Origin: an uncultured Limosilactobacillus sp.
GTDB taxonomy: Bacteria > Bacillota > Bacilli > Lactobacillales > Lactobacillaceae
Direction of reading: 5' to 3'
DNA length: 59,305 nucleotides
Assembly (NCBI GenBank): GCA_944327195.1
Contig: CALVGV010000008.1
Coordinates: 1-59,305, forward strand
Translations under genes and position numbers: made by a program
The notes under the pieces: generated by a model
The model's input: the letters and a program-made list of their open reading frames with translations, nothing else
What the model was told of the DNA's origin: nothing
Databases searched by the model: none
In this document: positions 4,499-55,122 of the stretch, one piece after another
Position numbering within the stretch: position 1 is the first letter of the stretch
How the letters are laid out: each line of letters starts with the position of its first letter

Positions 4499-4582
4499 TT
4501 GCCAAGCGGAGCGGAGCGAAAATCGCCCTCAGCCGGGGAATTCCCTTAGCGGTTTACCGCTTAGGGAAGGCCGAGTTTTGAG
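4499..4582 (+). repeat. R1a: truncated multi-hairpin repeat
   Basis: The left half of the ~150-bp family: GCGGAGCGGAGCGAAAAT, then the P4 hairpin (TTCCCTTAGCGG, loop TTTA, CCGCTTAGGGAA) and the start of P5 (GGCCGAGTTTTGAGA). The 3' arms of P2 and P3 are missing and the sequence drifts into about 55 unrelated bases before R1b begins. It is preceded by GTTGCC, the flank shared with R1b, R2, R4, R7 and R11. Confidence 0.8.
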
Positions 4583-4639
4583 AAAAGAAGTGGGCAATTT
4601 CTCAGGATTTGAAAGGGATGGAGCAAGTACTTTGTTGCC

Positions 4640-4805
4640 GGGCGGAGGGGGAGTAGACCTGGGAGTTCAGGGGTGAAATTTCACTTAACGGCTCTGCCGT
4701 TTAGTGAAAGGCCAAGCTTTGAGACCGTTCGGAGCAAGGCGGAGAAGGGGCTCAAAGTTGTGCCCACCCCGTTCCAATCTCCCAGCAGCTACTCCCCCGG
4801 AGCCC
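4640..4805 (+). repeat. R1b: multi-hairpin repeat, class II helix
   Basis: A complete copy whose helices are nearly all rewritten yet still pair. P1 is GGGC/GCCC instead of GGCC/GGCC, then GGA/GGA, P2 GGGGGAGTAG/CTACTCCCCC plus CTGGGAG/CTCCCAG around an AC/CAG internal loop, P3 GGGGTG/CACCCC, P4 TTTCACTTAACGGC/GCCGTTTAGTGAAA, and a P5 with an enlarged loop. The GGA-GCCC end lies 25 bp from the stop codon of the minus-strand HAD gene. Confidence 0.85.
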
Positions 4806-4829
4806 CCTGTCGACTATTCGCGGAGCCCC

Positions 4830-5651
4830 CTAACCGAGCACGTACTTCTCCACCGCCTCGGCCACGCCGTCGTGGTTGTTGTCGGCCACCGTCCCGTCGG
4901 CGCAGGCAATCGTCGACGGCACCGAGTTCCCCATCGCTACGCCGATCCCGGCGACCTCGATCATCGACTCGTCGTTCTGGGCGTTGCCGATCGCCATCGT
5001 GTCCTTCAGGTCGATCCCGAGGTGGGCGGTCAGGTTGGTCAGGGCGTTGCCCTTGCCGGCCTTGGGGTTGACCGCTTCAAGGTAGAAGGGTTCGCTGCGG
5101 ACGAAGGTGAAGCGCTCCTTGAACTCGGCCGGCAGCTTCGGCAGGATGGCGTCGATCGTGGCTGCCTCGTCGGTCAGCATTACCTTGCCGATTTCCAGCT
5201 GGTCCTTGAGTTGAAACTGCTGGTCAATAGTCCGGTAGCGAATCGGCATCGAGACCAGGTCGGACTCGTGAACGGTGTAGGGGCTGATGTCCTGGTCGGC
5301 GGTGTAGATGTAGTCGCTGGTTTCGATGATCACCTTGGCCCCCTGCTTGCGGTAGAAGTTTTGCAGGTCGAGGTAGTCGTCGAAATCAATCGTGGCCGCC
5401 ACCACCGGCCGCTCGCTGGTCGACTGGGCGAGGCCACCGTTGAAGGAGATCACGTACTGGTCGTCCTGGTGGTTGAGCCCCAGTTCGTCCAGGTAGGCGG
5501 CGACCCCGGTCATCGGCCGGCCGGTGCAGAGGACGACCTTGACCCCGGCCGCGCTGGCCTTCTTCAGGGCCGCCATGGTCTTGGGGGTGATTTGCCGCTG
5601 GTCGTTGATTAGGGTGCCGTCGATGTCGATTGCGATTAGCTTGATTGTCAT
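4830..5651 (-). CDS. Cof-type HAD-superfamily sugar phosphatase
   Basis: A 273-residue soluble phosphatase of the HAD superfamily, Cof/YidA subfamily IIB. Motif I is DIDGTL near residue 9 (nucleophile Asp), motif II is CTGRP near residue 42, and motif IV is GNAQNDESM near residue 220. Such enzymes hydrolyse sugar phosphates or pyridoxal phosphate with loose specificity. An AAGGAGAG site precedes the ATG. It starts about a dozen bases downstream of the HD hydrolase gene on the same strand, so the two probably form an operon. Length is normal for the family. Confidence 0.9.
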   Translation of the reverse strand: MTIKLIAIDIDGTLINDQRQITPKTMAALKKASAAGVKVVLCTGRPMTGVAAYLDELGLNHQDDQYVISFNGGLAQSTSERPVVAATIDFDDYLDLQNFYRKQGAKVIIETSDYIYTADQDISPYTVHESDLVSMPIRYRTIDQQFQLKDQLEIGKVMLTDEAATIDAILPKLPAEFKERFTFVRSEPFYLEAVNPKAGKGNALTNLTAHLGIDLKDTMAIGNAQNDESMIEVAGIGVAMGNSVPSTIACADGTVADNNHDGVAEAVEKYVLG

Positions 5652-5662
5652 GGTAACTCTCC

Positions 5663-7009
5663 TTAAATTAGGTGATCGTTTTTGAGGTAGGACTGGAATT
5701 CGTCGTAGATCGGCTCAAAGATCTCGATGTTTTCGTGCTGGGCCAGCATTTCCTTGGGGAAGAAGAAGCGCATGTCACCGGCCTCCTTGCCGGCCACGCT
5801 GGCCACCAGGGTCGAAACCTGGCTGAGCTCCACCTGGTCGCCGTTGGGCTGAACCAGTTCGATCTGGCTCTGCGGCGCGGTGGCCTGCGGGGTGTAGACG
5901 TCGTAGGGGAGCTTGTAGGAAGAGTTGGTGGCGGTGTAGTAATCGGCGTTAAAGCCGGCGGTGGTGATCAGCTCGCGCAGCTTTGGTAGCCTCTTGGCGG
6001 TCTCTTCGTTGTAGAGGACCGACTTGAAGGGGCGCCGGTTCAAGAAGCGGTCGGCCAGGTCGGCCAGGATGTCGTCGCTGGAGTGGCGCCAGTTGATGAA
6101 GGAGGTCAGGAGGACGCCGTCGTCGAGGTCGAGGTAGTCCTTGAGGGTGAAGCGGCCGTTGAAAAAGGGGGTCAAGAGGGCCGGGGCCATGGTGGCCTGG
6201 TAGTCGCTCGGGTGCTGGTAGAGCCACTTGGCCCGCCGCAGCTGGTGGGCGAGGATCACTTCCAGCGAGCGGGAAACCGGGTGGAAGTAGACCTGCAAAT
6301 ACATCTGTAGGCGGCTGAGGATGTAGTCTTCGACCGCGTGCATCCCGGCGATTTCAAAGGCGATCCCGCCCTTGACCGGCTGCATCACCTTCAGCACCCG
6401 GTCGAGGTCGAACTTGCCGTAGTTGGTGCCGGTGTAGTAGGCGTCGCGCTGGAGGTAGTCCATCCGGTCGGCGTCGATTTGCGAGGAAATCATTTGGACG
6501 ACCTGGGGATTACCGTAAGTGTGGTCGATCACGCTGGCCACCTTGGACGGGAAGTCGGGGGCGACCCGTTTGAGGACCCGGTTGATGTTGGTTTCCGGGC
6601 TGGTGATCAGCTGGCGGGTGAGCGCTTCGTGGTCGGTGTGGAAGATGTGCTCGAAGGTGTGGGAAAAGGGCCCGTGACCGAGGTCGTGCAGGAGGGCGGC
6701 GCAGAGGGCGACCGGCCGCTCGGTGTCGTCCCAGCGGCCGTCACCAGGAAACTTGCTCGGGTAGTTGCGCTGGAAGTGGTTGCACATCCGGCGGGTGATC
6801 TCGTAGACGCCGAGGCTGTGGCCGAAGCGGGAGTGCTCGGCGCCGTGGAAGATCAGGGAACTGGTGCCGAGCTGCTTGATCCGACGGAGGCGCTGGAACT
6901 CGGGGGTGTTGATCAGGTCGAGGATGATTTGGTTGTCGACCACGATGTAATGGTGGATCGGGTCGCGAAAGACCTTCTCCTTGGTAAGTTGTTCGTCAAA
7001 GTATCCCAT
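5663..7009 (-). CDS. HD-domain phosphohydrolase (YwfO-like)
   Basis: A 448-residue HD-superfamily metal-dependent phosphohydrolase. The metal ligands are visible as HSRFGHSLGVYE, the doublet in ALLHDLGHGPFSH, and a later Asp in SSQIDADRMDYL. It resembles the dGTPase-like YwfO/SamHD1-related group that degrades nucleotides. The start is taken as ATG 7009 because a GAGGAAAT ribosome site precedes it; the frame extends 61 codons further upstream without support. In many lactobacilli this gene sits beside ywiB and rpoE, as here. Substrate not proven. Confidence 0.85.
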   Translation of the reverse strand: MGYFDEQLTKEKVFRDPIHHYIVVDNQIILDLINTPEFQRLRRIKQLGTSSLIFHGAEHSRFGHSLGVYEITRRMCNHFQRNYPSKFPGDGRWDDTERPVALCAALLHDLGHGPFSHTFEHIFHTDHEALTRQLITSPETNINRVLKRVAPDFPSKVASVIDHTYGNPQVVQMISSQIDADRMDYLQRDAYYTGTNYGKFDLDRVLKVMQPVKGGIAFEIAGMHAVEDYILSRLQMYLQVYFHPVSRSLEVILAHQLRRAKWLYQHPSDYQATMAPALLTPFFNGRFTLKDYLDLDDGVLLTSFINWRHSSDDILADLADRFLNRRPFKSVLYNEETAKRLPKLRELITTAGFNADYYTATNSSYKLPYDVYTPQATAPQSQIELVQPNGDQVELSQVSTLVASVAGKEAGDMRFFFPKEMLAQHENIEIFEPIYDEFQSYLKNDHLI

Positions 7010-7147
7010 GAAATTTCCTCTTTTGCTGGTGGTGGGGATGATGGCTAGTTGAAATGATAATCGTAGAAATGTTGCTTGGATGGCCCAAAAGGTATGATTG
7101 TGAGCCTGTCGTTTAGGCAAGTAATAGTGAAAATCACCAAAGTTGCC

Positions 7148-7296
7148 GGCCGGAGCGGAGCGAAAATGCGGGCCAAGATAGCGAAATTTCACTTGGCGGG
7201 TTTCCCGCCTAGTGAAAGGCCGAGTTCTGAGACCCGCAGGGGCTCAGAATCGTGCCCGCTATCGTCACGGCCCGCAATTTTCGCGGAGCGGAGGCC
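7148..7296 (+). repeat. R2: multi-hairpin repeat, class I
   Basis: Full copy. P1 GGCC/GGCC, GGAGCGGA on both arms, P2 GCGAAAAT-GCGGGCC with GGCCCGC-A-ATTTTCGC, P3 GATAGCG/CGCTATC (elsewhere GATGGTG/CACCATC), P4 with a GGCGGG/CCCGCC top, P5 TTCTGAG/CTCAGAA with CGA/TCG below. It lies between divergent genes, 99 bp before the ywiB start. Confidence 0.9.
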
Positions 7297-7344
7297 CCAC
7301 CGAATTGCCTTTCATTATACCGAACTTAGCCCCGGCCTGCACGA

Positions 7345-7373
7345 TTGCGGCGGCGGGGAAATTTTTCTATAAT
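7345..7373 (+). promoter_or_regulatory. Promoter of ywiB-like gene
   Basis: TTGCGG, a 17-bp spacer and a perfect TATAAT. The expected transcript start near 7380 puts the GTG at 7395 very close to the 5' end. Confidence 0.6.
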
Positions 7374-7394
7374 AGGGAAAGAAATTTTTCGGGG

Positions 7395-7829
7395 GTGGCA
7401 GCGATCAAAGAAGCAGTGGCAGTCAAGGTGAACCTAACGGTGGAGGCAAAGATCGACGGCGAGCAGGAGCGATTCCACTTCGCCGAGGAGGGCCGGCTGG
7501 TGACCCTCAACGACCACCAGCACTATCTGACCTACACCGAGCACCAGGACGGGGTGGCAACCCCGGTCCGGATCCGGCTCGACGAGGGACAGGTCAGCGT
7601 CACCCGCGACGGCGCCCGCCGCACCCGCCTGCTCTTCGACCCGCAGGCGCCGACGATCAGCCACTACCGCACCGAGTACGGTCTTTTGCACTTGACGGTC
7701 AAGACCGAGCGCCTGCTGTCCTTGCACGATCTGGCGGCCGGCAAGGGGCACCTGGTGATCAAGTACCAGCTCCACAACGGCGGCGGTCAGATTGGCGATT
7801 ACCAGCTTGATTTGCGCTTTGAAAGATAG
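7395..7829 (+). CDS. DUF1934 / YwiB-like beta-barrel protein
   Basis: About 144 residues, soluble and rich in beta strand, matching the DUF1934 (YwiB) lipocalin-like family that lies upstream of rpoE in lactobacilli. The frame is open far upstream, but that part runs through repeat R2 and the promoter. GTG at 7395 (or GTG 7416) is therefore the likely start, though no strong ribosome site marks either. The family has no firm function. The C-terminus (QIGDYQLDLRFER) matches the usual end of the family. Confidence 0.75.
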   Translation: MAAIKEAVAVKVNLTVEAKIDGEQERFHFAEEGRLVTLNDHQHYLTYTEHQDGVATPVRIRLDEGQVSVTRDGARRTRLLFDPQAPTISHYRTEYGLLHLTVKTERLLSLHDLAAGKGHLVIKYQLHNGGGQIGDYQLDLRFER

Positions 7830-7869
7830 TATTATGTAGTTTAGACTTTTTGAAGGGATGTGCACCAAT

Positions 7870-8439
7870 TTGGATTTAAAGGTTTTCGATGGCCAAGATA
7901 AGTCAGAACTCTCGATGGTCGAGGTGGCACACGCCATCCTTGCCTACCATGGGGAAGCAATGGCCTTTGCTGATTTGACGAACGAAATTCAACAATACCT
8001 TGGCAAGAGCGACGAGGAAATCCGCGAACGCCTTTCCCAGTTCTACACTGATCTGAACGTCGATGGCAGCTTTATTTCCCTTGGTGACAATACCTGGGGC
8101 CTGCGGGCATGGTACCCATACGAGTCAATCGACGAGGCCACGATCGGCGAAAGCGATGACGACGAAGAGCGGCCAAAGAAGAAGACCCGCAAGGTCAACG
8201 CCTTTCTCGCCGGTAGCGACGATGACGACGACGTGATCGACTACGACAACGACGATCCGGAAGACGAGGATCTCGACGACACCGACGACAACGGTGACGA
8301 CGACGATTACGATGACGACTACGACGACGACAACCCGGTTGACGACGATGACGACGACAGCGGCATCGAAGACCAACTGTCCGAACTCGATGACGACGAC
8401 TTCGACGGCGAAGACGACGACGATGAGGACGAGGAATAG
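7870..8439 (+). CDS. rpoE: RNA polymerase delta subunit
   Basis: About 189 residues. The folded N-terminal HARE-HTH domain ([13 protein letters not shown], residues about 12-24) is followed by a long tail of almost only Asp and Glu from about residue 95, the hallmark of the delta subunit that raises RNA polymerase recycling and promoter selectivity in Firmicutes. Start: TTG 7870 is preferred because the GAAGGG site ends about 12 bases before it; an in-frame ATG at 7858 abuts that site too closely. It lies between ywiB and pyrG in conserved order. Codon choice in the tail (GAC, GAT) produces a low-complexity tract. Confidence 0.9.
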
Positions 8440-8448
8440 ATTAATTGC

Positions 8449-8477
8449 TTGACTATCGGACCGGGCGTCGGTAATAT
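8449..8477 (+). promoter_or_regulatory. pyrG promoter
   Basis: TTGACT, a 17-bp spacer and TAATAT. The predicted start falls on GGGC at 8485, as required for CTP-sensitive reiterative initiation. Confidence 0.75.
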
Positions 8478-8479
8478 GA

Positions 8480-10231
<1,752 letters not shown>

Positions 10232-10238
10232 GCAACGA

Positions 10239-10266
10239 AGCGGGAGTAAGCGGGCTCCCGCTTTTT
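10239..10266 (+). terminator. Terminator after pyrG
   Basis: AGCGGGAG pairs with CTCCCGCT followed by T5. Confidence 0.9.
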
Positions 10267-10426
10267 GTTTGGCCGGGGCCAGCCACCATAAATTTTCTGC
10301 TAAGTGGCGCGGGCGGAATGTGACCAAATCGTTCGGAAAGTCTTAAGCTCGCTTTGCAAATTGGCCGGGGGACCGGTTGAAATGGGGGAAGATCGTGACC
10401 GATTTGTTAAGAATCACGGTAAAAGG

Positions 10427-10455
10427 TTGTAATTTGGTGCTTGATTCATTATCAT
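10427..10455 (+). promoter_or_regulatory. Promoter of murA
   Basis: TTGTAA, a 17-bp spacer and TATCAT. The stretch 10267-10535 otherwise holds only this promoter and an 80-nt leader; I see no gene in it. Confidence 0.6.
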
Positions 10456-10535
10456 ATCTATTGACTGTTTCAATTTGGTAAGACAGGAGACAGGCCTAAT
10501 TAATTAATAGCGTTATTAAGTGAGGAAAGACAATC

Positions 10536-11801
10536 ATGAAAAAAATGATCATTCAAGGAGGAAACCGTCTTGCGGGTGAAGTGACCATCGGCGGGGCTAA
10601 AAATAGCACCGTGGCCCTGATTCCAGCGGCGATCTTAGCCGACACTCCCGTCCAGTTTGATACCGTGCCGGACATCCTGGATGTTCACAATCTAATGATT
10701 ATTTTGGAATCGATGAACGTGAAGTCCGCCTTTTCCCACGGGGTCTTAGACGTCGACCCAACCCAGATCGTGGAAGCCGAACTGCCAAGCAAGGCGATCA
10801 AGAGCCTGCGGGCCTCCTACTACTTCATGGGGGCCCTGCTCGGCCGCTTCCACCGGGCAACCTTGACCTTTCCCGGCGGGGACAACATCGGTCCCCGGCC
10901 AATTGACCAACACCTAAAAGCCTTTGAAGCCCTCGGGGCCACCGTCAGCGAAGAGGGGGGCACCGTCCACCTCGACGCCCCGAACGGCCTCAAGGGGAAC
11001 CGGATTTTCATGGACATGGTCTCGGTGGGGGCCACGATCAACGCCATCCTGGCCGCCGTGCGCGCCGACGGGGTAACGGTGATCGAAAACGCCGCCCGGG
11101 AACCAGAAATCGTTGACCTGGCCACCTTTCTGAACAACATGGGGGCCCAGATCCGCGGGGTCGGGACCGACGTGATTCGGATCACCGGGGTCAAGACCCT
11201 GCAATCAATGAACACCCACACGATCATCGCCGACCGGATCGAAACCGGGACCTACCTGTCACTGGCGGCGGCCCTGGGCGACGGGATCATGCTCAACAAC
11301 GTGATTCCGGAACACCTGGAGGCCTACACCAGCAAGATGATTGAGATGGGGGTCGACCTGCAGATCGACAGCGACAAGATCTTCGTGCCGCCGGTTAAGA
11401 AGCTCCAGGCGATTCACGTTAAGACGATGCCTTACCCGGGCTTTGCCACCGACCTCCAGCAGCCGTTGACGCCGCTGATGTCCTTGGCCGACGGACAGAG
11501 CGTGGTTGTCGACACGATCTACCCGAAGCGGGTCAAGCACATCCCGGAACTGCAAAAGATGGGGATGAAGATTGCCGCCGGCGACGGCCGGATCACGATC
11601 GACCACACCGAAAAGGACAGCCTCCACGGGGCCGACGTTGAGGCCGGCGAAATCCGTGCCGGGGCCTCCCTGATGATCACCGGGCTGATGGCCAAGGGCA
11701 CGACCGTCATTCACAAGGCCGACAACATCCTCCGCGGCTACGACCGGATTGTGTGGAAGCTCAACCGGCTCAACGCCGACGTCAAGATTGAGGACGAATA
11801 G
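10536..11801 (+). CDS. murA: UDP-GlcNAc 1-carboxyvinyltransferase with Asp at the catalytic Cys site
   Basis: A 421-residue enzyme for the first committed step of peptidoglycan synthesis, moving enolpyruvyl from PEP to UDP-GlcNAc. The fold signatures GGAKNS and KSLRASYYFMGALLG are present. The active-site loop reads PGGDNIGPRP, with Asp 116 where E. coli MurA has Cys115 (GGCTIGARP). Fosfomycin alkylates that Cys, and Cys-to-Asp forms are known to stay active and resist the drug (for example in mycobacteria and chlamydiae). Ribosome site near 10520, ATG 10536. The place between pyrG and rpmE2 is conserved in lactobacilli. Confidence 0.95.
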   Translation: MKKMIIQGGNRLAGEVTIGGAKNSTVALIPAAILADTPVQFDTVPDILDVHNLMIILESMNVKSAFSHGVLDVDPTQIVEAELPSKAIKSLRASYYFMGALLGRFHRATLTFPGGDNIGPRPIDQHLKAFEALGATVSEEGGTVHLDAPNGLKGNRIFMDMVSVGATINAILAAVRADGVTVIENAAREPEIVDLATFLNNMGAQIRGVGTDVIRITGVKTLQSMNTHTIIADRIETGTYLSLAAALGDGIMLNNVIPEHLEAYTSKMIEMGVDLQIDSDKIFVPPVKKLQAIHVKTMPYPGFATDLQQPLTPLMSLADGQSVVVDTIYPKRVKHIPELQKMGMKIAAGDGRITIDHTEKDSLHGADVEAGEIRAGASLMITGLMAKGTTVIHKADNILRGYDRIVWKLNRLNADVKIEDE

Positions 11802-11912
11802 TTTTTGCCCCGCAAGGATTGCCGAACGGGGAAAACTGTGTTATTCTGTCTAAGTTATTGAAAATAATCTATGTTTCAGGCAATGATTCATGGCAAAGGA
11901 GCGAATTAAATT

Positions 11913-12158
11913 ATGAAGCAAGGAATTCACCCAGACTACCACTACGTTGTGTTTGAAGACTCCTCGACGGGCTTTAAGTTCCTGTCCGGGTCGACGGCCA
12001 CTTCCAAGGAAACGGTTAAGTGGGAAGACGGCAACGAATACCCACTGATCCGGGTTGAAGTTACCTCCGACTCGCACCCATTCTACACGGGGAAGCAAAA
12101 GTTCACCCAAGCCGATGGGGCGGTCGACAAGTTCAACAAGAAGTACGGGCTCAAGTAG
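11913..12158 (+). CDS. rpmE2: 50S ribosomal protein L31 type B
   Basis: An 81-residue ribosomal protein. [15 protein letters not shown] and [12 protein letters not shown]-like blocks identify L31. The zinc-binding Cys pairs of type A are absent, so this is the Cys-free type B form used when zinc is scarce. ATG 11913 follows AAAGGAG. It is the last gene of the rpoE-pyrG-murA-rpmE2 region and has its own terminator. Confidence 0.95.
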
Positions 12159-12177
12159 TCATCCGGGCTTCACACCA

Positions 12178-12213
12178 GCGGGCAGGCGCCATTGGCGTCG
12201 GCCCGCTTTTTTT
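12178..12213 (+). terminator. Terminator after rpmE2
   Basis: AGCGGGC pairs with GCCCGCT, with a smaller inner hairpin (GGCGCC/GGCGTC), then T7. Confidence 0.85.
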
Positions 12214-12273
12214 ATCGCCAGGGCCGGGCAGGGGGAGTTGCCCGGTCGAAAAGAAGCGAATGGGGGAGAGATA

Positions 12274-13182: not shown

Positions 13183-13211
13183 GAAGGTGAATTCAAGGGA
13201 GGAAATTGAAA

Positions 13212-13907: not shown

Positions 13908-13916
13908 GGAGGAGCC

Positions 13917-14768: not shown

Positions 14769-14773
14769 TAACG

Positions 14774-14806: not shown

Positions 14807-14866
14807 GTCCCGAAGGGGGCGGACAGTTTTTTCTCCCCGGGAACTTTGCTATACTAGGTTTAATAA

Positions 14867-23072: not shown

Positions 23073-23263
23073 GGCCTCCGCTCCGCGAAAATTGCGGGAT
23101 CGTGACGATGGCGGTGGGCCTCCGCTCCGGAAAATTGTGGGCCGTGACGATGGTGGGCACAACTTTGAGCCCCTCCGGGTCTCAAAGCTTGGCCTTTCAC
23201 TAGGCGGTAAACCGCCAAGTGAAAATTCGCCATCTTGACCCGCATTTTCGCTCCGCTCCGGCC
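23073..23263 (-). repeat. R3: multi-hairpin repeat with a duplicated 3' arm
   Basis: Minus-strand copy starting 5 bp after the permease stop. It has one 5' arm (GCGAAAAT-GCGGGTC, then GATGGCG) but two tandem 3' arms: an inner one (23117-23158 region, CACCATC) and an outer one (23073-23116, CGCCATC). The 5' arm pairs better with the outer arm (GATGGCG/CGCCATC), so the inner arm looks like the remnant of another copy. Confidence 0.85.
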
Positions 23264-23757
23264 CGGCGTCAGTTGTGGATAGTGGTAACTGTTTGTGATT
23301 GGGCAGCAACCACCTGTTGCCTTGGGGGGGAGCTAAGGTGACAAAAGGACAAAGAGCCAAAATCACGCTCGATAGTTAATAATTAATTTTGGGTAGTACG
23401 GCAATTGTCGGCTACCCATTTTCTTTTTGTTGCCTAATCTCAATTTTCAATATAGAAATGTTAAGTTGGCCAAGTCAGGTTTGGGAGATGATTGCTCACT
23501 AAGAGCGAACTCTGGGAGCCTTCCAATGGCTTTTACAGTTGGCATTTTTTACTAGGTGACGAAGAATTAGTGATGATCAAACTCTAGTGAATCCGTTTGG
23601 CTATTTGGCAATCATCGAGCCGATCATTTTTACGAGCTGATGGATCGTTCTAATCAGACGATGCATCATGGCGCTGGCGATCTTCTTAGTTTGTGGCAGA
23701 AGAGATCGCCTTTTTGTGGCCTAATGCCAACCACCGATAAAGAAACGTTACGTTGCC
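23264..23757 (+). other. AT-richer intergenic core between R3 and R4
   Basis: About 490 bp without a convincing gene. It begins with the P0 hairpin of R3 (GTGGT 23282-23286 with ACCAC 23309-23313). A possible terminator (GGGTAG/CTACCC, then TTTTCTTTTT) lies at 23391-23429. Base composition is clearly AT-richer than the genes on both sides. I see no tRNA, IS end or long ORF with a ribosome site. Confidence 0.6.
23391..23429 (+). terminator. Possible terminator in the R3-R4 core
   Basis: GGGTAG pairs with CTACCC around a smaller inner stem and is followed by a T-rich tract. Confidence 0.5.
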
Positions 23758-43788: not shown

Positions 43789-43923
43789 TGGTGGCAGGGG
43801 AAGGCACTTGGAAGGAAAGAAATGTAATCGCAGCAAGCCTGCTTAGCAGAATTGTGGATGTAGGCGAAACCACCAAGTAGCCCAATCCCAAAGAGAACAA
43901 AAAAAGAAGCATTGGTACCACCT

Positions 43924-47604: not shown

Positions 47605-47608
47605 TAAG

Positions 47609-47884
47609 ATGCGACTCGATAAGTTTTTGAAGGTTTCCCGGATCATCAAGCGGCGGACGATCGCCAAGAAGATTGCCGACCAGGGGCGGATCCTGGTCAA
47701 CGGCAAGGAGGCAAAGTCCTCGACCAAGGTGGCTCCCGGGGATGAGCTGACGATTAAGTTCGGCAACAAGACGACCGTTCTCAAGATCGACCAGGTGGAA
47801 GAAACCACCAAGAAGGCCGACGCCGCCGACCTCTACACCCTAATCAAGGAGGAGTACGCGGAGGACTTCTCCCTCGACGACTAG
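47609..47884 (+). CDS. rqcP: RqcP (S4-domain ribosome quality-control factor)
   Basis: A 91-residue S4-domain protein (MRLDKFLKVSRIIKRRTIAKK). Known as YabO/RqcP, it steadies the P-site tRNA while RqcH adds alanine tails to stalled chains on large subunits. It follows mfd by 4 bp. Repeat R10 begins 23 bp after its stop. Confidence 0.93.
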   Translation: MRLDKFLKVSRIIKRRTIAKKIADQGRILVNGKEAKSSTKVAPGDELTIKFGNKTTVLKIDQVEETTKKADAADLYTLIKEEYAEDFSLDD

Positions 47885-47906
47885 GCGGGAGCGTAACGGT
47901 GGTGGG

Positions 47907-48057
47907 GGCCTCCGCTCCGCAGCTTCCGCGGGCTGGAACATGGGGGGCACGACTTTGAGCCCTAACTCCGCCAGGTCTCAAAGCTCGGCCCTCCCTAAGC
48001 GGCAGAGCCGCTAAGGGAGTCTCCCCATTGAGCCCGTGGGTCTGCTCCGCTCCGGCC
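47907..48057 (-). repeat. R10: multi-hairpin repeat, class II
   Basis: In its own orientation: P2 GCAG, internal loop AC/AAG, then CCACGGGCT with AGCCCGCGG (one A-C mismatch); P3 ATGGGG/CCCCAT; P4 CTCCCTTAGCGGC/GCCGCTTAGGGAG; P5 CTTTGAG/CTCAAAG with an enlarged loop. The 3' arm is identical to the orphan arm in R5. Confidence 0.9.
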
Positions 48058-48337
48058 CTGGCGGCGGAGTGCATGGGTGGCCACAGCTTGTTAGGAGGGG
48101 AGAACCCCCTCTTTCGTGGGCGATATGAACTAGCCGTACTAGCTGACGGGAGGATCGTCTTTCTCTGACTTCCAGGTGATGAACTATGGGCGACTAGCAA
48201 GGCTCTTAGCGTTTATTTGTAGTTGGCGAAACGTTGCTACTTTCATTAACATTAACTAGCTGGCTAGGAAAGTCATCTGTGAAAAGGGGGGTTCTTCCCT
48301 TTCGCCAAGCAGGAGCCACCTTAGCACTACGTTGCCG
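48058..48337 (+). other. AT-richer intergenic core between R10 and R11
   Basis: 280 bp without a gene. The first ~55 bp match the P0 region of R12 in layout (GGGGGTT and ACTCC arms on the minus strand, motif ACAAGCTGTGGCC). Further small inverted repeats (CTAGC-rich) follow. No promoter assigned. Confidence 0.5.
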
Positions 48338-48486
48338 GGCCGGAGCGGAGCGAATGGGCGGGCTAAGATGGTGAGATTTCACTTGGCGATTTATCGCCTA
48401 GTGAAAGGCCAAGCTTTGAGACCCGGAGGGGCTCAAAGTTGTGCCCACCATCGTCACGGTCCCGCCCACTTCGCGGAGCGGAGGCC
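48338..48486 (+). repeat. R11: multi-hairpin repeat, class I variant
   Basis: P2 is GCGAA-TGGGCGGG with CCCGCCCA-C-TTCGC, P3 GATGGTG/CACCATC, P4 top GGCGA/TCGCC, P5 CTTTGAG/CTCAAAG. It lies 142 bp upstream of divIC, head-to-head with R10 across a 280-bp core. Confidence 0.9.
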
Positions 48487-48627
48487 CACCCCGTCCGATT
48501 CTCCCGAAACGAAGCGGTTAATTTGTCTTAAGTGCGAAATTTCGCAAATCCCCATGGACAAAAATGGATTTAACATGTCATACTACGGGTGAAATACCGT
48601 CACATAAAGGTGGAAAGGAGGCCGCTG

Positions 48628-48990
48628 ATGGCCGGCAAGCGGGTTACCAAGCTCAATAATCAATTTACCCGGGACCAGGAGAATCACCAGGCCCGCCAAC
48701 GCGAGTACCGCAAAAAGGTGCACCTGCGCCGGGCGATCGTCATCGGCAGCGTCTTCCTTGTCTTGGCCTTGGTATTAGGGATCCAGCTCTGGTCGGCCCA
48801 CCGGCAGTTGACCAAGCTCGATAACCAAATCAGCGCCGCCCAGACCACCCTCAAGCAAAAGAAGGCCAAAAACAAGAAGTTGGCCAAGCAAAAGAAGTTG
48901 CTCGAGGACCCGGCCTATTTGCAAGAGCTGATTCGCGCCAAGTATAACTACGCCAAGAAGGGCGAAATTATCTATAATTTTGTCAAATAG
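48628..48990 (+). CDS. divIC: Septum formation initiator DivIC
   Basis: 120 residues: short basic cytoplasmic N-terminus, one membrane helix (about 33-53), then a coiled coil (LDNQISAAQTTLKQKK) and a C-terminal extracellular part ending YAKKGEIIYNF. With DivIB and FtsL it forms the division trimer. ATG 48628 follows AAAGGAGG. The 140 bp upstream after R11 hold only a GCGAAATTTCGC palindrome. Confidence 0.9.
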   Translation: MAGKRVTKLNNQFTRDQENHQARQREYRKKVHLRRAIVIGSVFLVLALVLGIQLWSAHRQLTKLDNQISAAQTTLKQKKAKNKKLAKQKKLLEDPAYLQELIRAKYNYAKKGEIIYNFVK

Positions 48991-49016
48991 CGCGATCACC
49001 AAAATTGGCGGTGTGG

Positions 49017-49022
49017 TATACT
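49017..49022 (+). promoter_or_regulatory. -10 of the S1-domain gene
   Basis: TATACT with a TG-type extension just upstream; 70 bp before the start codon. Confidence 0.5.
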
Positions 49023-49091
49023 CATCTACAACGATTTAAAATTTTTTCGGTAGCGCCCGCTTTGGCGGGAAAATAGGAGGATTCGCTTTTC

Positions 49092-49580
49092 ATGGCAATT
49101 GAAGAAGGAAGCAAGGTTTCCGGCACGGTATCCGGAATCACGAACTTCGGTGCGTTTGTGGACCTGGAAGACAACCAAACCGGCCTGGTTCACATTAGTC
49201 AAATTTCCAATTCCTTCGTGAAGGACATTCACGACGTCCTGGCCGTTGGTGACCAGGTCGAAGCCAAGGTGGTCAAGGTGGCCCCGGATGGCAAGATTGC
49301 CCTATCGATGAAGGCAATTGAAGAGGCCCCGGCCGCCAAGCACATCGCCAAGGTGGAACGGGAACACGGCCACGACCACCGCGACCACGGGGAGGGCCGC
49401 CACTACGGTCGCGACTCCCGCCCGGCCCGTGGCGGTTACGGCAACCACCACGGCCACAAGCAGTCGGGTGACTTCAACGCCATGCTGGCTTCCTTCATGA
49501 AGGAAAGCGACTCCCGCCTGTCGACCTTGAAGCGCCAAACCGACGGCAAGCGCGGCGGCCGGGGTGGCCGGCGGAGCTAA
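49092..49580 (+). CDS. S1 RNA-binding domain protein (YabR-like)
   Basis: 162 residues. The S1 fold covers about residues 5-75 (GTVSGITNFGAFVDL, GLVHISQIS). The remainder is a His/Arg/Gly-rich tail (HGHDHRDHGEGRHYGRD) and ends RGGRGGRRS, an RGG-like RNA-binding end. Homologues next to divIC are general stress or translation-linked proteins. The stop and the tilS start overlap (TAATG). Confidence 0.88.
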   Translation: MAIEEGSKVSGTVSGITNFGAFVDLEDNQTGLVHISQISNSFVKDIHDVLAVGDQVEAKVVKVAPDGKIALSMKAIEEAPAAKHIAKVEREHGHDHRDHGEGRHYGRDSRPARGGYGNHHGHKQSGDFNAMLASFMKESDSRLSTLKRQTDGKRGGRGGRRS

Positions 49581-50959
49581 TGGCCACCAACTTAAGCAAA
49601 ATCATCAAGCGGTCCCTTCAGAGGAGCCGCTTTTTTGCGTTGGGCGGCAAAATCGTGGTCGCCACCTCGACCGGGGTCGACTCGATGGTGCTCTTGACCC
49701 AGCTTCAGGCGTTGGTGGCGCCGGAACGGTTGGTGGTCGCCCACGTCAACCACCACCTCCGCGCCCAGAGTGACCGCGAGGCGGCCTTTCTGCGTGACTA
49801 CTGCGCCCGCCGCGGCCTGCTCCTCCGGGTGGCCGACTGGCAGGACCACCCGCACCAGGGAATCGAGGCGGCGGCCCGCGACTTTCGCTACCGCTTCTTT
49901 GCCGCGGTGATGAAGGAGACCGGCGCCAAAATTTTGCTGACCGCCCACCACGCCAACGACCAGGCCGAAACGGTGCTGATGAAGCTGGTCCGCGGCGGCG
50001 ACCTCCGTCAGCTGGTTGGCCTGCGGGAGCGGCGCCCCTTTGCCGGCGGCGAGCTGGTGCGGCCCCTGCTGGCGGTCCCCAAGGCCCAGCTGGTGGCCAA
50101 CGCCCGAAATGGGGGAGTGACCTGGTTTGAGGACGCCACCAACGCCGACCAGTCAATCACCCGCAACCGCTACCGCAACCGCTACCTGCCGGAACTGGCG
50201 GCCGAAAACCCGCGCCTGGTGGGCGACCTGGGGGAGCTGGCGGCCCAGTTGGGTGACTTGCTGACAGCCAGCGACGACCTACTGGCCCCGCTTTTGACCA
50301 AGCTGACCACCCCGACCGGGCTCAACCTGGCCGGCTGGTGGCAACAGTCCCCGGCCACCCAGCGCCTCCTCTTGCGGGCCTGGCTAGCCAAGCAGGGGGT
50401 GGTCGACTTAAGCCAGGCCGCCCTCTGCCAACTCCAGGCCCGCCTTGCTCCGGATGCCAAGCCCAACCAGGTTCAGGAGCTGGCCGGCGGCTGGCGGGCG
50501 ATCCGCGCCTACGAGCGATTAGCGGTCAAAAAGGGAGAAAAAAAGGGGCGTCGTTCGGCTTTTACCGGGGAAAGTATGGTAAAATTTGCCCATTGGTACC
50601 CGGTGGCCGCCGGGGGAAGCTTCCTGGTTCAACCAGCCGCTGCCCCGGCCCCAACAACCGGGCAACCGGTGGCAACCTTCGTCCTACCAAAAACCGCCCT
50701 GCCGCTGCGAATCCGGCCCTCCCAACTGAGCGACCGCCTGCGGCTGAAGGGGGGCGGCTGGCAGCCGGTGCGGCGGGTGCTGATCAACCAGAAGGTCCCG
50801 GCGGCAGAGCGGCCGCGGGCCCAGCTCCTGGTTGACCAGACCGACCGGCCGCTGTGGCTGGTTGGCTACCGCTTTGCCTGGTGGGAGTGGCCACCGGTAA
50901 TTGACGACAAGTGGCAAAAAATCGTGGTCTATCTGAAGGGAGAGGACGAGCGTGAATAA
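49580..50959 (+). CDS. tilS: tRNA(Ile)-lysidine synthetase
   Basis: 459 residues. It converts the wobble C of the AUA-reading tRNA-Ile to lysidine, an essential step. The ATP PP-loop reads STGVDSMVLL in place of the common SGGVDS; the key Gly, Asp and Ser remain. HVNHHLR and the C-terminal domains are typical. It overlaps yabR-like upstream and hpt downstream. Confidence 0.94.
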   Translation: MATNLSKIIKRSLQRSRFFALGGKIVVATSTGVDSMVLLTQLQALVAPERLVVAHVNHHLRAQSDREAAFLRDYCARRGLLLRVADWQDHPHQGIEAAARDFRYRFFAAVMKETGAKILLTAHHANDQAETVLMKLVRGGDLRQLVGLRERRPFAGGELVRPLLAVPKAQLVANARNGGVTWFEDATNADQSITRNRYRNRYLPELAAENPRLVGDLGELAAQLGDLLTASDDLLAPLLTKLTTPTGLNLAGWWQQSPATQRLLLRAWLAKQGVVDLSQAALCQLQARLAPDAKPNQVQELAGGWRAIRAYERLAVKKGEKKGRRSAFTGESMVKFAHWYPVAAGGSFLVQPAAAPAPTTGQPVATFVLPKTALPLRIRPSQLSDRLRLKGGGWQPVRRVLINQKVPAAERPRAQLLVDQTDRPLWLVGYRFAWWEWPPVIDDKWQKIVVYLKGEDERE

Positions 50960-51497
50960 CGACATTGAGCGGGTGCTCTATAGCGAAGAAGAGATCCAAA
51001 CGCGGATTGGCGAGATGGCAAAGCAAATCGAAAAGGATTACGCCGACAAGCGACCGATGGTGATTTCGGTCCTGACCGGGGCAATCCTCTTCACCGTTGA
51101 CCTCTTGGAGAAGGCGGACATCTACACCACCCTGGACTTCATCGACGTCTCCAGTTACTTTGGGGCGGCGGAATCCTCGGGCCGGGTGGAACTGGTTCGT
51201 GACCTCAAGTCCGACGTCAAGGGCAAGGACATTTTGATCTGCGAAGACATCATTGACTCCGGGCGGACCCTCCAGTACCTGGTGGACCTGCTGAAGAAGC
51301 GGGGGGCCAAGTCGATCAAGGTGGCAACGATGCTCGACAAGCCGGCCGGCCGCGACAAGGACGTGACTGTTGAGGCCGATTACGCCGGCTTCCTGGTGCC
51401 GAACGAATTCCTGGTGGGCTACGGGCTCGACTACGACGGCTACTACCGCAACCTGCCTTACGTGGGGATTTTGAAGAAGGAAGTTTACAGCAAGTAA
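50952..51497 (+). CDS. hpt: Hypoxanthine phosphoribosyltransferase
   Basis: A 181-residue purine-salvage enzyme joining hypoxanthine or guanine to PRPP. The PRPP loop is ICEDIIDSGRTL. GTG 50952 overlaps the tilS end by 8 bp. The tilS-hpt-ftsH order is general in Firmicutes. Repeat R12 begins 11 bp after the stop, and ftsH has its own promoter beyond it. Confidence 0.95.
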   Translation: MNNDIERVLYSEEEIQTRIGEMAKQIEKDYADKRPMVISVLTGAILFTVDLLEKADIYTTLDFIDVSSYFGAAESSGRVELVRDLKSDVKGKDILICEDIIDSGRTLQYLVDLLKKRGAKSIKVATMLDKPAGRDKDVTVEADYAGFLVPNEFLVGYGLDYDGYYRNLPYVGILKKEVYSK

Positions 51498-51507
51498 GGT
51501 AGTTGGG

Positions 51508-51656
51508 GGCCTCCGCTCCGCGAATCGGGCGGGACCGTGACGATGGCGGGCACGATTCTGAGCCCCTCTGGGTCTCAGAACTCGGCCTTTCACTAGGCGG
51601 TAAACCGCCAAGTGAAATTTCGCCATCTTGGCCCGCCCATTCGCTCCGCTCCGGCC
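51508..51656 (-). repeat. R12: multi-hairpin repeat, class I variant
   Basis: Own orientation: P2 GCGAAT-GGGCGGG with CCCGCCC-G-ATTCGC, P3 GATGGCG/CGCCATC, P5 TTCTGAG/CTCAGAA with CGA/TCG. P0 lies outside: GGAGTTG (51667-51673) with CAACCCC (51701-51707). Confidence 0.9.
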
Positions 51657-51868
51657 AGGCCGCGGTGGAGTTGCCGTGGCTGCGGCTTGAGTAAGGACGA
51701 CAACCCCCTCTTCTTTTGAAAGAAGGGGGATGCGAAAGTAGGAAGGATATGTGAATTGGGCGGCTACTGGCTAGCCAGCTTTTGAGCCGCTCTTCGAAAC
51801 GCACATCCTCCCCGCAACACCGGCCTCCAATTTGTGATGAATTAATAGTCAACCTTAGTCAATTGTGG
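51657..51868 (+). other. Intergenic core between R12 and the ftsH promoter
   Basis: About 210 bp without a gene. After the P0 region come a CCCCCT/AGGGGG-type hairpin with a TTCTTTTGAAAGAA core (51704-51729) and small inverted repeats such as GGCTAGCC. No terminator T tract is evident. Confidence 0.5.
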
Positions 51869-51874
51869 TATATT
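51869..51874 (+). promoter_or_regulatory. -10 of ftsH
   Basis: TATATT preceded by TGTGG; the -35 is weak. The leader is about 45 nt. Confidence 0.5.
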
Positions 51875-51924
51875 AAGGCCATTATGAGAATGGCGAAAAG
51901 CCGTTGGATTTAGGAGGATTGTGG

Positions 51925-54135
51925 ATGAACAACAATCGGAAAAACAACGGGTTCACTCATAACGTCCTCTTCTATTCAGTGATCTTTTTGTGCATCATGG
52001 GGATTGCTTACTACTTCTTCGGGGGGAGTACCCATTCTAGCCAGAGCAAGGAAATTTCGCAGAGCGAATTCATTACTGAACTGAAGAGCGACAAGATCAA
52101 GAGCTTCACTGTCCAGCCAAACGGTGGCGTCTACAAGATCACCGGGACCTACAAGAAGGCCCAGTCGGTATCTTCCGGGCAAAAGAGCGGCCTGAGCTTT
52201 GCCGGGCAAAGTTCAAGCACCACCACCAAGAGCTTCCAAAGCTCGGTGCTGGAAAGTGACGTAACGATCAGCCAACTGCAAAAGTACGCTGATCAAGATA
52301 ACGTCAAGATCACCACCAAGGCGGAGGAGTCCAATAGCATTTGGTCCAACCTCTTGATCACGGTCTTGCCGTTAGTGATCATGATTTTCTTCTTCTACAT
52401 GATGATGGGCCAAGCCGGGCAAGGCGGCGGTGGCCGCGGGGTGATGAGCTTTGGCAAGTCCAAGGCCAAGCCAGCGGACGCCAAGGAAAACAAGGTCCGC
52501 TTCTCTGACGTTGCCGGGGAAGAAGAAGAAAAGCAGGAACTGGTCGAAGTCGTCGAGTTCTTGAAGAACCCTAAGAAATTCATGAAGTTAGGTGCCAAGA
52601 TTCCATCCGGGGTGCTGCTCGAAGGCCCTCCGGGGACCGGGAAGACCCTCTTGGCCCGGGCGGTTGCTGGGGAAGCCGGCGTGCCGTTCTTCTCGATTTC
52701 CGGGTCGGACTTCGTTGAAATGTTCGTCGGGGTCGGGGCCAGCCGGGTCCGCGACCTCTTCGACCAAGCCAAGAAGGCCGCCCCAGCGATCATCTTCATC
52801 GACGAAATCGATGCCGTTGGTCGCCGGCGGGGTAATGGCATGGGCGGCGGTCACGACGAACGCGAACAAACCCTGAACCAACTCCTGGTTGAAATGGACG
52901 GGTTCCAGGGTGACGAAGGCGTGATCGTGATGGCGGCCACTAACCGGGCCGACGTCCTCGACCCTGCCCTCCTGCGGCCGGGCCGGTTTGACCGGAAGAT
53001 CCTGGTTGGGCGGCCGGACGTTCGCGGGCGGGAAGCCATCCTGCGCGTTCACGCCAAGAACAAGCCGCTGGCCAGCGACGTGGACCTCAAGGAAATCGCC
53101 AAGCAGACGCCGGGCTTTGTCGGTGCTGACCTGGCCAACCTCTTGAACGAAGCGGCCCTCCTGGCGGCGCGGCGGAACAAGTCGGAAATCGACGCCGCCG
53201 ACGTCGACGAAGCCGAGGACCGGGTAATTGCCGGGCCGGCCAAGCGCGACCGCGTCATCTCCAAGCAGGAGCGGCGGACGGTGGCCTTCCACGAGGCCGG
53301 GCACACGATCGTTGGGCTGGTGCTCAACGACGCCCGGGTCGTCCACAAGGTAACGATTGTGCCGCGGGGCCGCGCCGGCGGTTACGCCATCATGTTGCCG
53401 AAGGAAGACCAGATGCTGATGTCCAAGAAGAACGCCGAGGAACAAATCGCCGGCCTGATGGGGGGCCGGGCGGCCGAAGAATTGATCTTCAAGTCGCAAT
53501 CCTCGGGGGCTTCCAACGACTTTGAGCAGGCGACCCAAATCGCCCGCGCGATGGTTACCCAGTACGGGATGTCGGAAAAGATCGGGCCGGTAGAGCTGCA
53601 AAGCTCCGGTGCTGTCTTTGCCGGCCAAGAGTACGGGCAGGCGCCGTTCTCCGAGAAGACGGCCGCCCTGGTCGACGAAGAGGTGCGGCGGATCCTTAAC
53701 GAGGGTCACGCCCAAGCCCTGCATATCATCGAAACTCACCGTGAGCAGCACCGGCTGATTGCCGAGGCCCTCTTGGAATACGAAACCCTTGATGAAAAGC
53801 AAATTCTCAGCCTGTACAAGACCGGGAAGATGCCGGAAAAGGACGTTGAGGTTGCCGACAGCGAGCAACGCGCCCAAACCTTCGAGGAAGCCAAGAAGGA
53901 GCTGGAACGCAAGGAAAACGCCCGCGCCACCGCGGCGGAAGAGAGCGCTGAACAACTGGATGAGGAAACCACCCAGGCCCTGGCCGAGAGCGCAAGCCCG
54001 GCTGAAAGCGCAGCTGCTTCTGCTAGTGCGGCGGACAGCGCAAGCGCTGCTGCCAGCGACGAGGCGGAACCGACGAGTTCGGCCGCGCCGACGGACAGTG
54101 CGAGTGACGACGATCATTCTGAAGAACCAAAGTAG
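51925..54135 (+). CDS. ftsH: ATP-dependent zinc metalloprotease FtsH
   Basis: 736 residues. Membrane helix near 10-30, extracytoplasmic loop with Ser/Thr-rich stretch, second helix near 140-160, then the AAA domain ([32 protein letters not shown]) and the zinc protease (HEAGHT). It degrades membrane and regulatory proteins. The last ~70 residues are an Ala/Ser/Asp/Glu-rich tail ([16 protein letters not shown]), longer than in many homologues. ATG 51925 follows AGGAGG; the frame upstream of it is leader. Confidence 0.96.
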
Positions 54136-54156
54136 CGGCAACCTGCCGCCACGATT

Positions 54157-54195
54157 AAGGAGGCTGGGTGCCCACGGGGAGCCCAACCTCCTTTT
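54157..54195 (+). terminator. Terminator after ftsH
   Basis: AAGGAGG and TGGG pair with CCCA and CCTCCTT, then TTTT. Confidence 0.85.
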
Positions 54196-54215
54196 GCTTG
54201 CTCACTAATGATGAG

Positions 54216-54364
54216 GGCCTCCGCTCCGCGAAAATTGCGGGACCGTGACGATGGTGGGCACAACTTTGAGCCCCTCCGGGTCTCAAAGCTTGGCCTTTCA
54301 CTAGGCGGTAAACCGCCAAGTGAAATTTCACCATCTTGGCCCGCATTTTCGCTCCGCTCCGGCC
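54216..54364 (-). repeat. R13: multi-hairpin repeat, class I
   Basis: The common form: P2 GCGAAAAT-GCGGG(CC) with a bulged T on the 3' arm, P3 GATGGTG/CACCATC, P4 TTTCACT/AGTGAAA topped by GGCGG/CCGCC, P5 CTTTGAG/CTCAAAG. P0 lies outside at 54376-54414 (GCGGTT with AACCAC). It follows the ftsH terminator by 20 bp. Confidence 0.92.
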
Positions 54365-54709
54365 CGGCGTCATTAGCGGTTCTTGGCAACTGCTTGTAAC
54401 AAGGTACCAACCACCAAATAGGGGGTGTGAATGCCTTACCCTAGAAAGTAACTACGAGCGATTAGTTAGTAGCGGATCGGGTACCCCTCCCGCCTTTGCA
54501 GAGCGGTACTTACTACTCGTTCTAGCTATGTTAAGAACGCAAAGCAATGGAGCGATGGGCTACTTTGCAAGTCTTAAAATGCTCTAACTAAGCCCAGTAC
54601 TAGCAACCCAGAGCGTAAAAAAACGCGTATTATATTAACGAACTTAATAGATGGGTACCCAAAATGCCGCTGGAACCATGTCCAGGTGGTTGTCGCAGTG
54701 GTACCACCT
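54365..54709 (+). other. AT-richer intergenic core between R13 and R14
   Basis: 345 bp without a credible gene. It contains the P0 hairpin of R13, a possible -10 (TATTATATT near 54630), and near its right end CCAGGTGG/CCACCTGG, a hairpin immediately before R14. Confidence 0.5.
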
Positions 54710-54875
54710 GGCCGGAGGGGCGGAGACCCGGGAGCTCAGGGGTGTCGTTCCACTTGGCGATTTATCGCCTAGTGGAAGGCCGAGCTTGAAGACCGCCGGA
54801 AAGCGAAGCGATTCCGGTGGGCTTCAAGTCGTGCCCACCCCGTTCCAGTCTCCCGGCAGCTCCGCCCCGGAGGCC
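54710..54875 (+). repeat. R14: multi-hairpin repeat, class II with extended P5
   Basis: P1 GGCC/GGCC with a single GGA/GGA, P2 GGGGCGGAG/CTCCGCCCC and CCGGGAG/CTCCCGG around an AC/CAG loop, P3 GGGGTG/CACCCC, P4 TTCCACT/AGTGGAA topped by GGCGA/TCGCC. P5 CTTGAAG/CTTCAAG carries an extra CCGGAA/TTCCGG helix, where most copies have a short loop. Confidence 0.92.
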
Positions 54876-54976
54876 ACCCCCCCTTAAAGGGACCTAGTTT
54901 TCTACCAACAGAATGCTTCGCTGCCAGTTGCCATTTCCCAACCGAAGAGAAGAATAACGAAACCTGGGTACCACCT

Positions 54977-55122
54977 GGCCGGAGCGGGGAGACCCGGGGC
55001 CCAATGGGGAGACTCCCTTAGCGGCTTTGCCGCTTAGGGAGGGCCGAGCTTTGAGACCGGCTTGCCTGGCTCAAAGTCGCTGCCCCCCATGTTCCGGCCC
55101 CGGCAAGCTCCCCGCGGAGGCC
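54977..55122 (+). repeat. R15: multi-hairpin repeat, class II, in the hslO leader
   Basis: P2 GCGGGGAG/CTCCCCGC and CCGGGGCC/GGCCCCGG around AC/CAAG, single GGA/GGA, P3 ATGGGG/CCCCAT, P4 CTCCCTTAGCGGC/GCCGCTTAGGGAG, P5 CTTTGAG/CTCAAAG. It ends 34 bp before hslO with no promoter between, so it is likely in the 5' leader. R14 and R15 are in tandem, 100 bp apart. Confidence 0.92.

Follow-up and report, generated by a model that had tools for sequence, protein, structure and literature searches.

The window analysed here, the whole 59,305-nucleotide (nt) stretch of contig CALVGV010000008.1 from an uncultured Limosilactobacillus sp., carries a family of repeats, which we call arms. They share one conserved fold, and neighbouring arms lie head to head with their 3' ends outward. 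An nhmmer search seeded with a single copy and run to convergence found 17 pieces within positions 4507–55121, of which 13 were full-length (146–167 nt) and 4 were partial. As a covariance model of the full arm (R1) makes the copy at 4637–4808 full as well, the tally becomes 14 full and 3 partial arms (Table 1). The initial annotation had counted sixteen copies with a common fold; the common fold stands, and the count is corrected by this search.

Table 1. Full and partial arms in the window, with their strand, setting and search score.
Positions	Strand	Feature	Score
4507–4593	+	Partial arm; 5' portion up to P5 kept, 3' portion lost	nhmmer E = 4.9e-16
4637–4808	+	Full arm by covariance model; P1 variant GGGC/GCCC	R1 118.1 bits
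7144–7300	+	Full arm	R1 171.6 bits
23073–23114	-	Partial arm, 3' end only, 4 nt past gene end 23068	nhmmer E = 3.8e-5
23113–23267	-	Full arm, left member of head-to-head pair with 23754	R1 160.0 bits
23754–23916	+	Full arm, right member of pair with 23113	R1 140.5 bits
32687–32843	-	Full arm, single	R1 172.1 bits
40362–40518	-	Full arm, left member of pair with 40736; outer end abuts gene end 40361	R1 162.5 bits
40736–40806	+	Middle-deleted arm, right pair member, 2 nt from 3' end (40809) of minus-strand gene	R1 41.5 bits
42269–42425	+	Full arm, single; outer end abuts 3' end (42426) of minus-strand gene	R1 164.8 bits
43920–44073	+	Full arm, single, 24 nt ahead of start (44098) of 1169-codon gene, which we take to be mfd-like	R1 168.4 bits
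47903–48061	-	Full arm, left member of pair with 48334	R1 125.1 bits
48334–48490	+	Full arm, right member of pair with 47903	R1 166.3 bits
51504–51660	-	Full arm, single, 6 nt past gene end 51497	R1 174.4 bits
54212–54368	-	Full arm, left member of pair with 54706	R1 178.6 bits
54706–54879	+	Full arm, right member of pair with 54212	R1 131.3 bits
54973–55126	+	Full arm, third element in intergenic region of 54212/54706 pair, 29 nt before gene 55156	R1 113.6 bits

The fold proposed in the initial annotation holds on the aligned copies. The arm is a three-way junction in which, from the outside in, P1 (GGCC/GGCC) is followed by a 3x3 GGA/GGA loop, GC/GC, a second GGA/GGA loop (present in most window copies, not all) and P2. 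Inside P2 come a short asymmetric loop, whose 3' side reads GTCAC or GTTCC, then P3, an AAA junction, P4 and P5. P4 carries a T.T mismatch; in P5 one base is bulged in each strand, G in the 5' and T in the 3'. In the predicted fold of the arm at 54706–54879, paired bases replace one of the GGA/GGA loops. A single copy folded with z = -8.0 under DNA parameters and -8.1 under RNA parameters.

The unpaired features are strongly conserved. From 135 R1 matches we drew a list of 80 copies in the window's genome (G000), having dropped seven from G019 and others that were weak, partial or antisense; GGA was present in each outer-stem strand, 5' and 3', in 77 of these 80 copies and in an interior stretch in 16. 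A GGA pattern was rejected, as its backward control performed equally well (7 vs 7). In an R1 alignment of 125 rows spanning several genera, with gaps excluded, the mismatch columns held T in 113/121 and 115/122 rows, the bulged G was present in 115/123 and the bulged T in 110/118. By eye, the 5' flanks of the arms at 43920, 54706 and 54973 and of many G000 copies are of two kinds, one ending in GGTACCACC and the other a stretch like GGTTGnnGCC...CACAAGCAGTnGCC.

The stems around these features covary. In a MAFFT alignment of 14 rows, comprising the 13 full window copies and the 4637 copy (A1), 94.0% of the paired cells held pairs compared to 82.3% in shuffles, and this dropped to 39–49% when the partners were slid. 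Two-sided change was seen in 30 of 56 pairs (84 such cells vs 23.9 in shuffles). The A1 covariation score was 0.325, compared to 0.131 in shuffles (reached in 0 of 500) and 0.061–0.104 with slid partners, a comparison in which the structure has an advantage over the slid versions as it was derived from one A1 row. In an alignment fitted to R1 (A4), 53 of 56 pairs were altered on both sides. Picking and trimming 77 cores from A4, with rows selected by length and G000 thinned, gave a cross-genus MAFFT alignment (A5) with two-sided change in 37 of 40 pairs and a covariation score of 0.600, compared to 0.187 shuffled and 0.069–0.138 slid. P1 varies in the same way, as had been noted for the GGGC/GCCC copy at 4637: in G163, a complete genome related to that of the window, 42 arms carry GTCG/CGAC, 32 carry GTCC/GGAC and one has a G-T pair (patterns caught 75 of 86 arms). 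This very strong covariation confirms that the observation of one conserved, covarying fold was real.

The family extends far beyond the window. R1 gave at least 82 matches in G000 (150 of 947 candidates scored), at least 107 in G163 and at least 40 in G281, another complete genome (150 candidates scored each). In 21 other genomes of the window's genus, R1 matched G019 only, in an AT-rich form of the same fold, and a core model (R2) added one more, G280. Scanning the genome collection for the P5 pattern returned 38 loci, 33 of them from lactobacilli (Levi-, Compani-, Lactiplanti-, Limosi- and Lacticaseibacillus); neither the other five nor one match on a viral contig was matched by R1 at E <= 0.1. 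R2, limited to nine scored candidates or fewer in each genome, found the arm in at least 125 of 397 Lactobacillaceae genomes and at least 15 of 40 genera (E <= 1e-4). The dozens of genomic copies expected in the initial annotation were indeed present. Arms also occur on plasmids (17 records of Lactiplantibacillus and one of Levilactobacillus; R2 confirmed all five that were fetched), and phage records searched with one arm as query gave no match.

Among 295 Lactobacillales genomes 15 matched, 12 from Lactobacillaceae and three, weakly, from another family. Three copies in one genome of the latter family were 95–98% identical over 270–278 nt, and by eye they share P5 and loop motifs with the arms. 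This related element of about 270 nt (L357–L361; copies 80–98% identical) is possibly EFAR, the modular palindromic repeats of enterococci that insert into stem-loops, most of them deleted, with stem remnants at the element's ends.

Like the initial annotation, we recognised no named RNA family. Rfam 15 gave no match above the gathering threshold on the arms, and its sole match in the window was a ribosomal protein leader, L31-Firmicutes, at 11869–11901. At relaxed E-values, 1.05 kb of the window yielded two sub-threshold miRNA models and nothing better on the arms, and seven loci from other genera yielded a T-box off the arm and, on an arm of L100, the PsiU2-55 model below its threshold (28.8 bits vs 55 needed, E = 0.007).

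Neighbouring arms mostly lie head to head, an arrangement that the initial annotation had not described. Among neighbours at most 700 nt apart in 60 stretches of G163 (nhmmer), 33 were ordered minus-plus, four plus-plus and none plus-minus. The corresponding G000 neighbours comprised 17 minus-plus, five plus-plus, two minus-minus and no plus-minus arrangements. A hand count at loci of other genera, some of them orthologous, gave 18 minus-plus, four minus-minus and no plus-minus. Typing in G163 used 86 full arms, as 12 of 98 nhmmer hits did not span the model and were dropped, and distinguished types A (34), B (21), C (15), D (14), E (1) and F (1). The 26 typed pairs were AD (13), BC (10), AB (2) and BE (1). 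None was homotypic, compared to 6.0 expected (P = 0.0015), and the 23 AD or BC pairs were matched in 0 of 10,000 permutations.

Whole pairs recur at different loci. In G163, units L274 and L275 are 97.5% identical across all 510 nt and units L269, L270 and L272 are about 96% identical over 372–379 nt, and in both cases the flanks differ by eye. This near-identity means that the pair was copied as one unit. The initial annotation had read the family as pairing kept under selection and not a recently copied sequence. The conserved structure is upheld, and the absence of recent copying is contradicted by G163 pairs that are 96–97.5% identical from end to end; the family is thus both structure-constrained and recently copied. 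In G000 only the orientation of the pairs is seen. Arms without a full-length partner within 700 nt make up 34 of the 86 in G163, some with a fragment of the partner left.

Several arrays and inserts depart from the simple pair. Lacticaseibacillus brantae (L114:1748-2228) has three tandem arms at a spacing of about 168 nt. Five G000 copies (L048:1458-1742, L056:1459-1736, L072:1795-2071, L074:1420-1697 and L081:1821-2094) have an insert of about 125 nt at a similar position in P5, which by eye is itself a hairpin repeat occurring elsewhere in G000. Also by eye, L160 and L164, both from G169, hold another structured repeat, about 115 nt long and itself variable, in the spacer or within an arm, and a short common insert starting CCAAATAGGCTAGC lies in or beside arms of two Limosilactobacillus species (L090, L117).

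A copied unit with inverted arms could be a miniature inverted-repeat transposable element (MITE), the non-autonomous derivative of a classical DDE transposon, and many G163 units do have inverted ends, TGCCGTC/GACGGCA, of the kind by which MITEs are defined. We nevertheless consider this origin improbable. No consistent target duplication was found at 25 G163 units (the best, of 3 nt, in 4/25), although old units could have lost it, and similarity between the two arms of a G000 pair (62.5%) does not exceed that between any two copies (65.4%). The sole transposase seen beside an arm belongs to an ISLre2-like element on two plasmids (L173:3432-5166, L175:3428-5167), where one arm lies between the transposase stop codon and the right end. 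As a candidate autonomous copy it was rejected: a protein this close (E <= 1e-80) occurs in just 8 of 301 Lactobacillaceae genomes, and we therefore read the plasmid arm as a passenger case.

Arms lie almost entirely between genes, according to a purpose-written gene finder. After the four partial pieces were put back onto the 80-copy list, 1 of 84 G000 arms overlapped a predicted gene; in G163, 0 of 90 did. For 74 G000 arms the outer neighbour could be scored with no arm in between, and it was a stop codon for 47 and a start codon for 27. Nineteen of the stop-facing arms lie at -5 to +6 nt from the codon, and 26 of the start-facing arms at 20 nt or more. In the fetched G163 stretches, arms occupy 15 of 19 convergent gaps longer than 120 nt and 7 of 31 divergent ones.

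Folded, covarying sequences at gene ends might be expected to be RNA. A structured RNA family, either a small RNA gene or a 3'-end or 5'-leader element, could have spread genome-wide and be maintained by selection on the transcript; its fold and covariation are typical of structured RNA, and 27 of the 74 scored G000 arms face a start codon. We find this unlikely. The stop-facing majority runs antisense to the adjoining gene, copies occur on both strands and in heterotypic pairs, and the number of matches per genome ranges from 0 to 107. The composition of the pairs also argues against RNA. In 45 tRNAs of G000 and G163, G.T filled 60 of 986 stem cells and A.C none, in a set found with ARAGORN, which favours standard pairs. 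As this control is biased by the finder, RNase P was added. Through the same pipeline (MAFFT, alifold), RNase P of 30 Lactobacillaceae had 12.6% GT and 0.9% AC, compared to 3.0% and 1.4% in the element, which corresponds to GT/AC ratios of 14.0 (280 vs 20) and 2.1 (76 vs 36), respectively (Fisher, 3e-10). P3–P5 on the given A5 structure held 54 GT and 40 AC among 2394 cells, and the fitted alignment of G000 had 98 GT to 78 AC (p = 0.15). The helices thus covary as in a structured RNA, without the large excess of G.U over A.C. These pair statistics look more like DNA than RNA, and they fit either selection or template-switch repair on DNA hairpins, with perhaps a slight residual strand preference.

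The changes themselves are mostly two-sided, with a ratio of two-sided to one-sided changes of 9.95 compared to 3.51 in RNase P. Part of this results from entire hairpins differing at once. In G163, two arms that are 98.6% identical outside P4 have different P4 hairpins. A further comparison outside P4 gives 22 same-type arm pairs with 93% identity or more whose 5' P4 strands differ at two bases or more; in 13 of the 22 the 3' strand has equally many differences. With P4 recognised in 79 of 86 arms, 5 of 13 P4 stems were found in more than one arm type. Taking all same-type pairs, the P4 stem is shared in 534; in 168 the two strands show the same number of differences and in 148 they do not, which shows that P4 pairing was not always kept. 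The massive compensatory variation described in the initial annotation is therefore borne out as covariation and qualified in that whole-hairpin change accounts for part of it.

Such a pattern could also arise without selection, if polymerase template switching at quasi-palindromes rewrote stems to perfect complementarity, a process described as a source of multibase compensatory changes (PMC8794818). The scarcity of intermediates and the replacement of hairpins en bloc are what it would produce, and we regard it as a possible, if doubtful, account of the compensation. Acting alone, however, it would erase the T.T mismatch, the bulged G and the bulged T, which persist within the stems, and the recurrence of the same stems across arm types suggests exchange between copies.

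The history of one site could be followed in ten relatives. Four close species carry the unit and six have no arm. In two of the four unit-bearing species one arm is wholly or mostly gone, which palindrome deletion would lead one to expect. G344 has the same gene pair, flanking, as read by eye, an ordinary intrinsic terminator and no arm; in the other five armless relatives the region past the first gene does not match G163, which makes them uninformative. Right-arm P4 stems differ as a whole in three of the four species (TTTTACT/AGTAAAA, TTCTTGT/ACAAGAA and TTATTCT/AGAATAA), and despite the P4 differences at this locus L309 and L311 are 91% identical over the entire region (blastn).

Terminator-like hairpins appear at other sites too. 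A terminator-like hairpin was found in the spacer of 18 of 26 G163 units (43 of 130 shuffles) and of 6 of 17 G000 units (10 of 85 shuffles). Beside G163 arms without a full partner, the inner 120 nt were terminator-like in 27 of 34 cases and the outer flank in 8 of 34. Complementarity between the outer flanks was assessed within unit types, which is the version of the test to trust. For AD units of G163 it was 27.6, compared to 20.2 when flanks were swapped within the type (0/2000), and with the nearest 35 nt removed it was 14.7 compared to 11.8 (4/2000), with 4 of 13 units (L259, L261, L262 and L273) above the 95th centile. At L259, L262 and L273 the unit lies between A- and T-tracts and stems specific to each locus and, judged from the sequence, looks as if it sits in a split terminator.

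The fold, the pairing of arms, the copying of whole units, the locus with and without a unit and the whole-hairpin differences are direct observations, and together they lead us to think, with moderate confidence, that the family is a mobile non-coding palindromic DNA element of the Lactobacillaceae that is recognised as folded DNA. The copied unit would be the head-to-head pair, whose arms are homologous, differ from each other and flank a short spacer, and the many single arms are probably remnants of palindrome deletion. A trans-acting enzyme, we infer, recognises the arm as folded single-stranded or cruciform DNA, in which the GGA/GGA loops, the T.T mismatch, the bulged G and the bulged T would be the fixed unpaired features. 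It would copy the unit into intergenic sites at gene ends without target duplication, and some insertions may have fallen inside terminator stem-loops, with terminators as presumed targets. The stems would then change, partly through a putative exchange of whole hairpins between copies.

Two known routes of movement were looked for through their enzymes. Y1 transposases (PF01797) had no match in G163, G281, G293 and G085, one each in G000, G214 and G187, and five in G169; five element-free genomes of the window's genus had 3–27. Reverse transcriptase (PF00078) had no match in G000, G163, G281, G214, G169 and G085, with one match each in G187 and G293. Neither known route therefore accounts for all genomes. 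More speculatively than the mobile element itself, one could propose a new kind of transposition. A putative enzyme other than a Y1-HUH transposase or a reverse transcriptase would recognise the folded three-way junction of DNA in each of the two arms and transfer the pair to intergenic stem-loops, for example terminators. The recognition code would be shape (the T.T mismatch, the bulges and the GGA/GGA loops). As recognition would be shape-based, stem sequence would be free to change, and DNA would evolve like a structured RNA without G.U.

Several results weigh against a mobile DNA element of this kind. Both Y1 and reverse transcriptase are without a match in G163, G281 and G085, and of ten proteins encoded between outward arms 2.5–5 kb apart eight belong to ordinary Pfam families and two to none, in a search that left out one small open reading frame of L071 and those of L351–L353. 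The with/without comparison of the site uses genes that are just 77% identical, and loss of the unit in the fifth species, G344, would therefore explain it as well. The inner flanks of related arms are non-independent samples, and four near-identical short AD units of G163 have no terminator-like spacer. Flank complementarity was not raised in BC units of G163 (15.3 vs 15.5 swapped; 1178/2000 as high) or in G000 (13.2 vs 15.6 swapped; 1891/2000), and the first flank test (0/2000; 5 of 25 units above the 95th centile) was overstated because unit types were mixed. Lastly, outside G000 the excess of GT over AC persists in the fitted alignment (85 vs 56, p = 0.018), the one alignment in which this count speaks for RNA.

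If a mobile DNA element is nevertheless what these arms represent, a repeat reaching 100 copies or more in a lactobacillus genome lacks an Rfam entry, and covariation, commonly taken as proof of RNA, would here be maintained at the DNA level. Targeting of intergenic stem-loops, if true, would let mobile DNA spread without breaking genes. The family would offer a test bed for DNA shape recognition in mobility, for compensatory change through template switching and for the reshaping of transcript ends by mobile elements. Other covarying intergenic repeats can be checked in the same manner, by comparing G.T with A.C and passing a known RNA through an identical pipeline.

The literature searched, which was thin in subscription papers, contained no description of an arm family in Lactobacillaceae, nor of a three-way junction bearing GGA/GGA loops, of the heterotypic pair or of the Lactobacillaceae range; "lactobacill" does not occur in the main text of PMC3733652. 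Small, structured, repeated intergenic sequences such as RUP, BOX, bcr1 and ERIC-type repeats (PMC3733652, PMC2267715) are similar by description. Efa-1 of E. faecalis (163 bp, 65 copies) resembles the lactobacillus element in its size, its intergenic position and its pair of adjacent stem-loops (PMC2267715). Efa-1 and EFAR, which we liken to the arms by description only, may be true relatives.

Among REP sequences, those tagged with CGTC form predominantly head-to-head dimers and have no dedicated transposase known (PMC3733652). Many G163 units likewise end in CGTC, and the element is like them in having no dedicated transposase known; unlike the arms, these REPs are single short hairpins with stems of 8–9 bp (PMC3733652). 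In the REPIN/REP system the inverted doublet is the replicative unit and singlets are its remnants, head-to-head dimers and heterodimers occur, the position is mostly extragenic, and a hairpin bulge matters for recognition in one REP group (PMC3116915, PMC3733652, PMC8266576). The lactobacillus element shares the inverted doublet with a spacer, the singlets, the extragenic position and the compensatory changes (PMC3116915), and in G163 the doublet is the copied unit. Could the arms then be strictly defined REPINs, with a RAYT/Y1 HUH transposase as their mover? We regard this as very unlikely. With about 150 nt, and folded into a three-way junction, the arms are several times longer than REPs, palindromes tagged GTAG whose length PMC3733652 puts at 20–40 bp, and the lack of a Y1 match in four element-rich genomes, set against its presence in element-free ones, contradicts such a mover for these genomes, barring a Y1 protein too divergent for Pfam. 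By analogy, the lactobacillus element appears to work most like REPINs, without their transposase.

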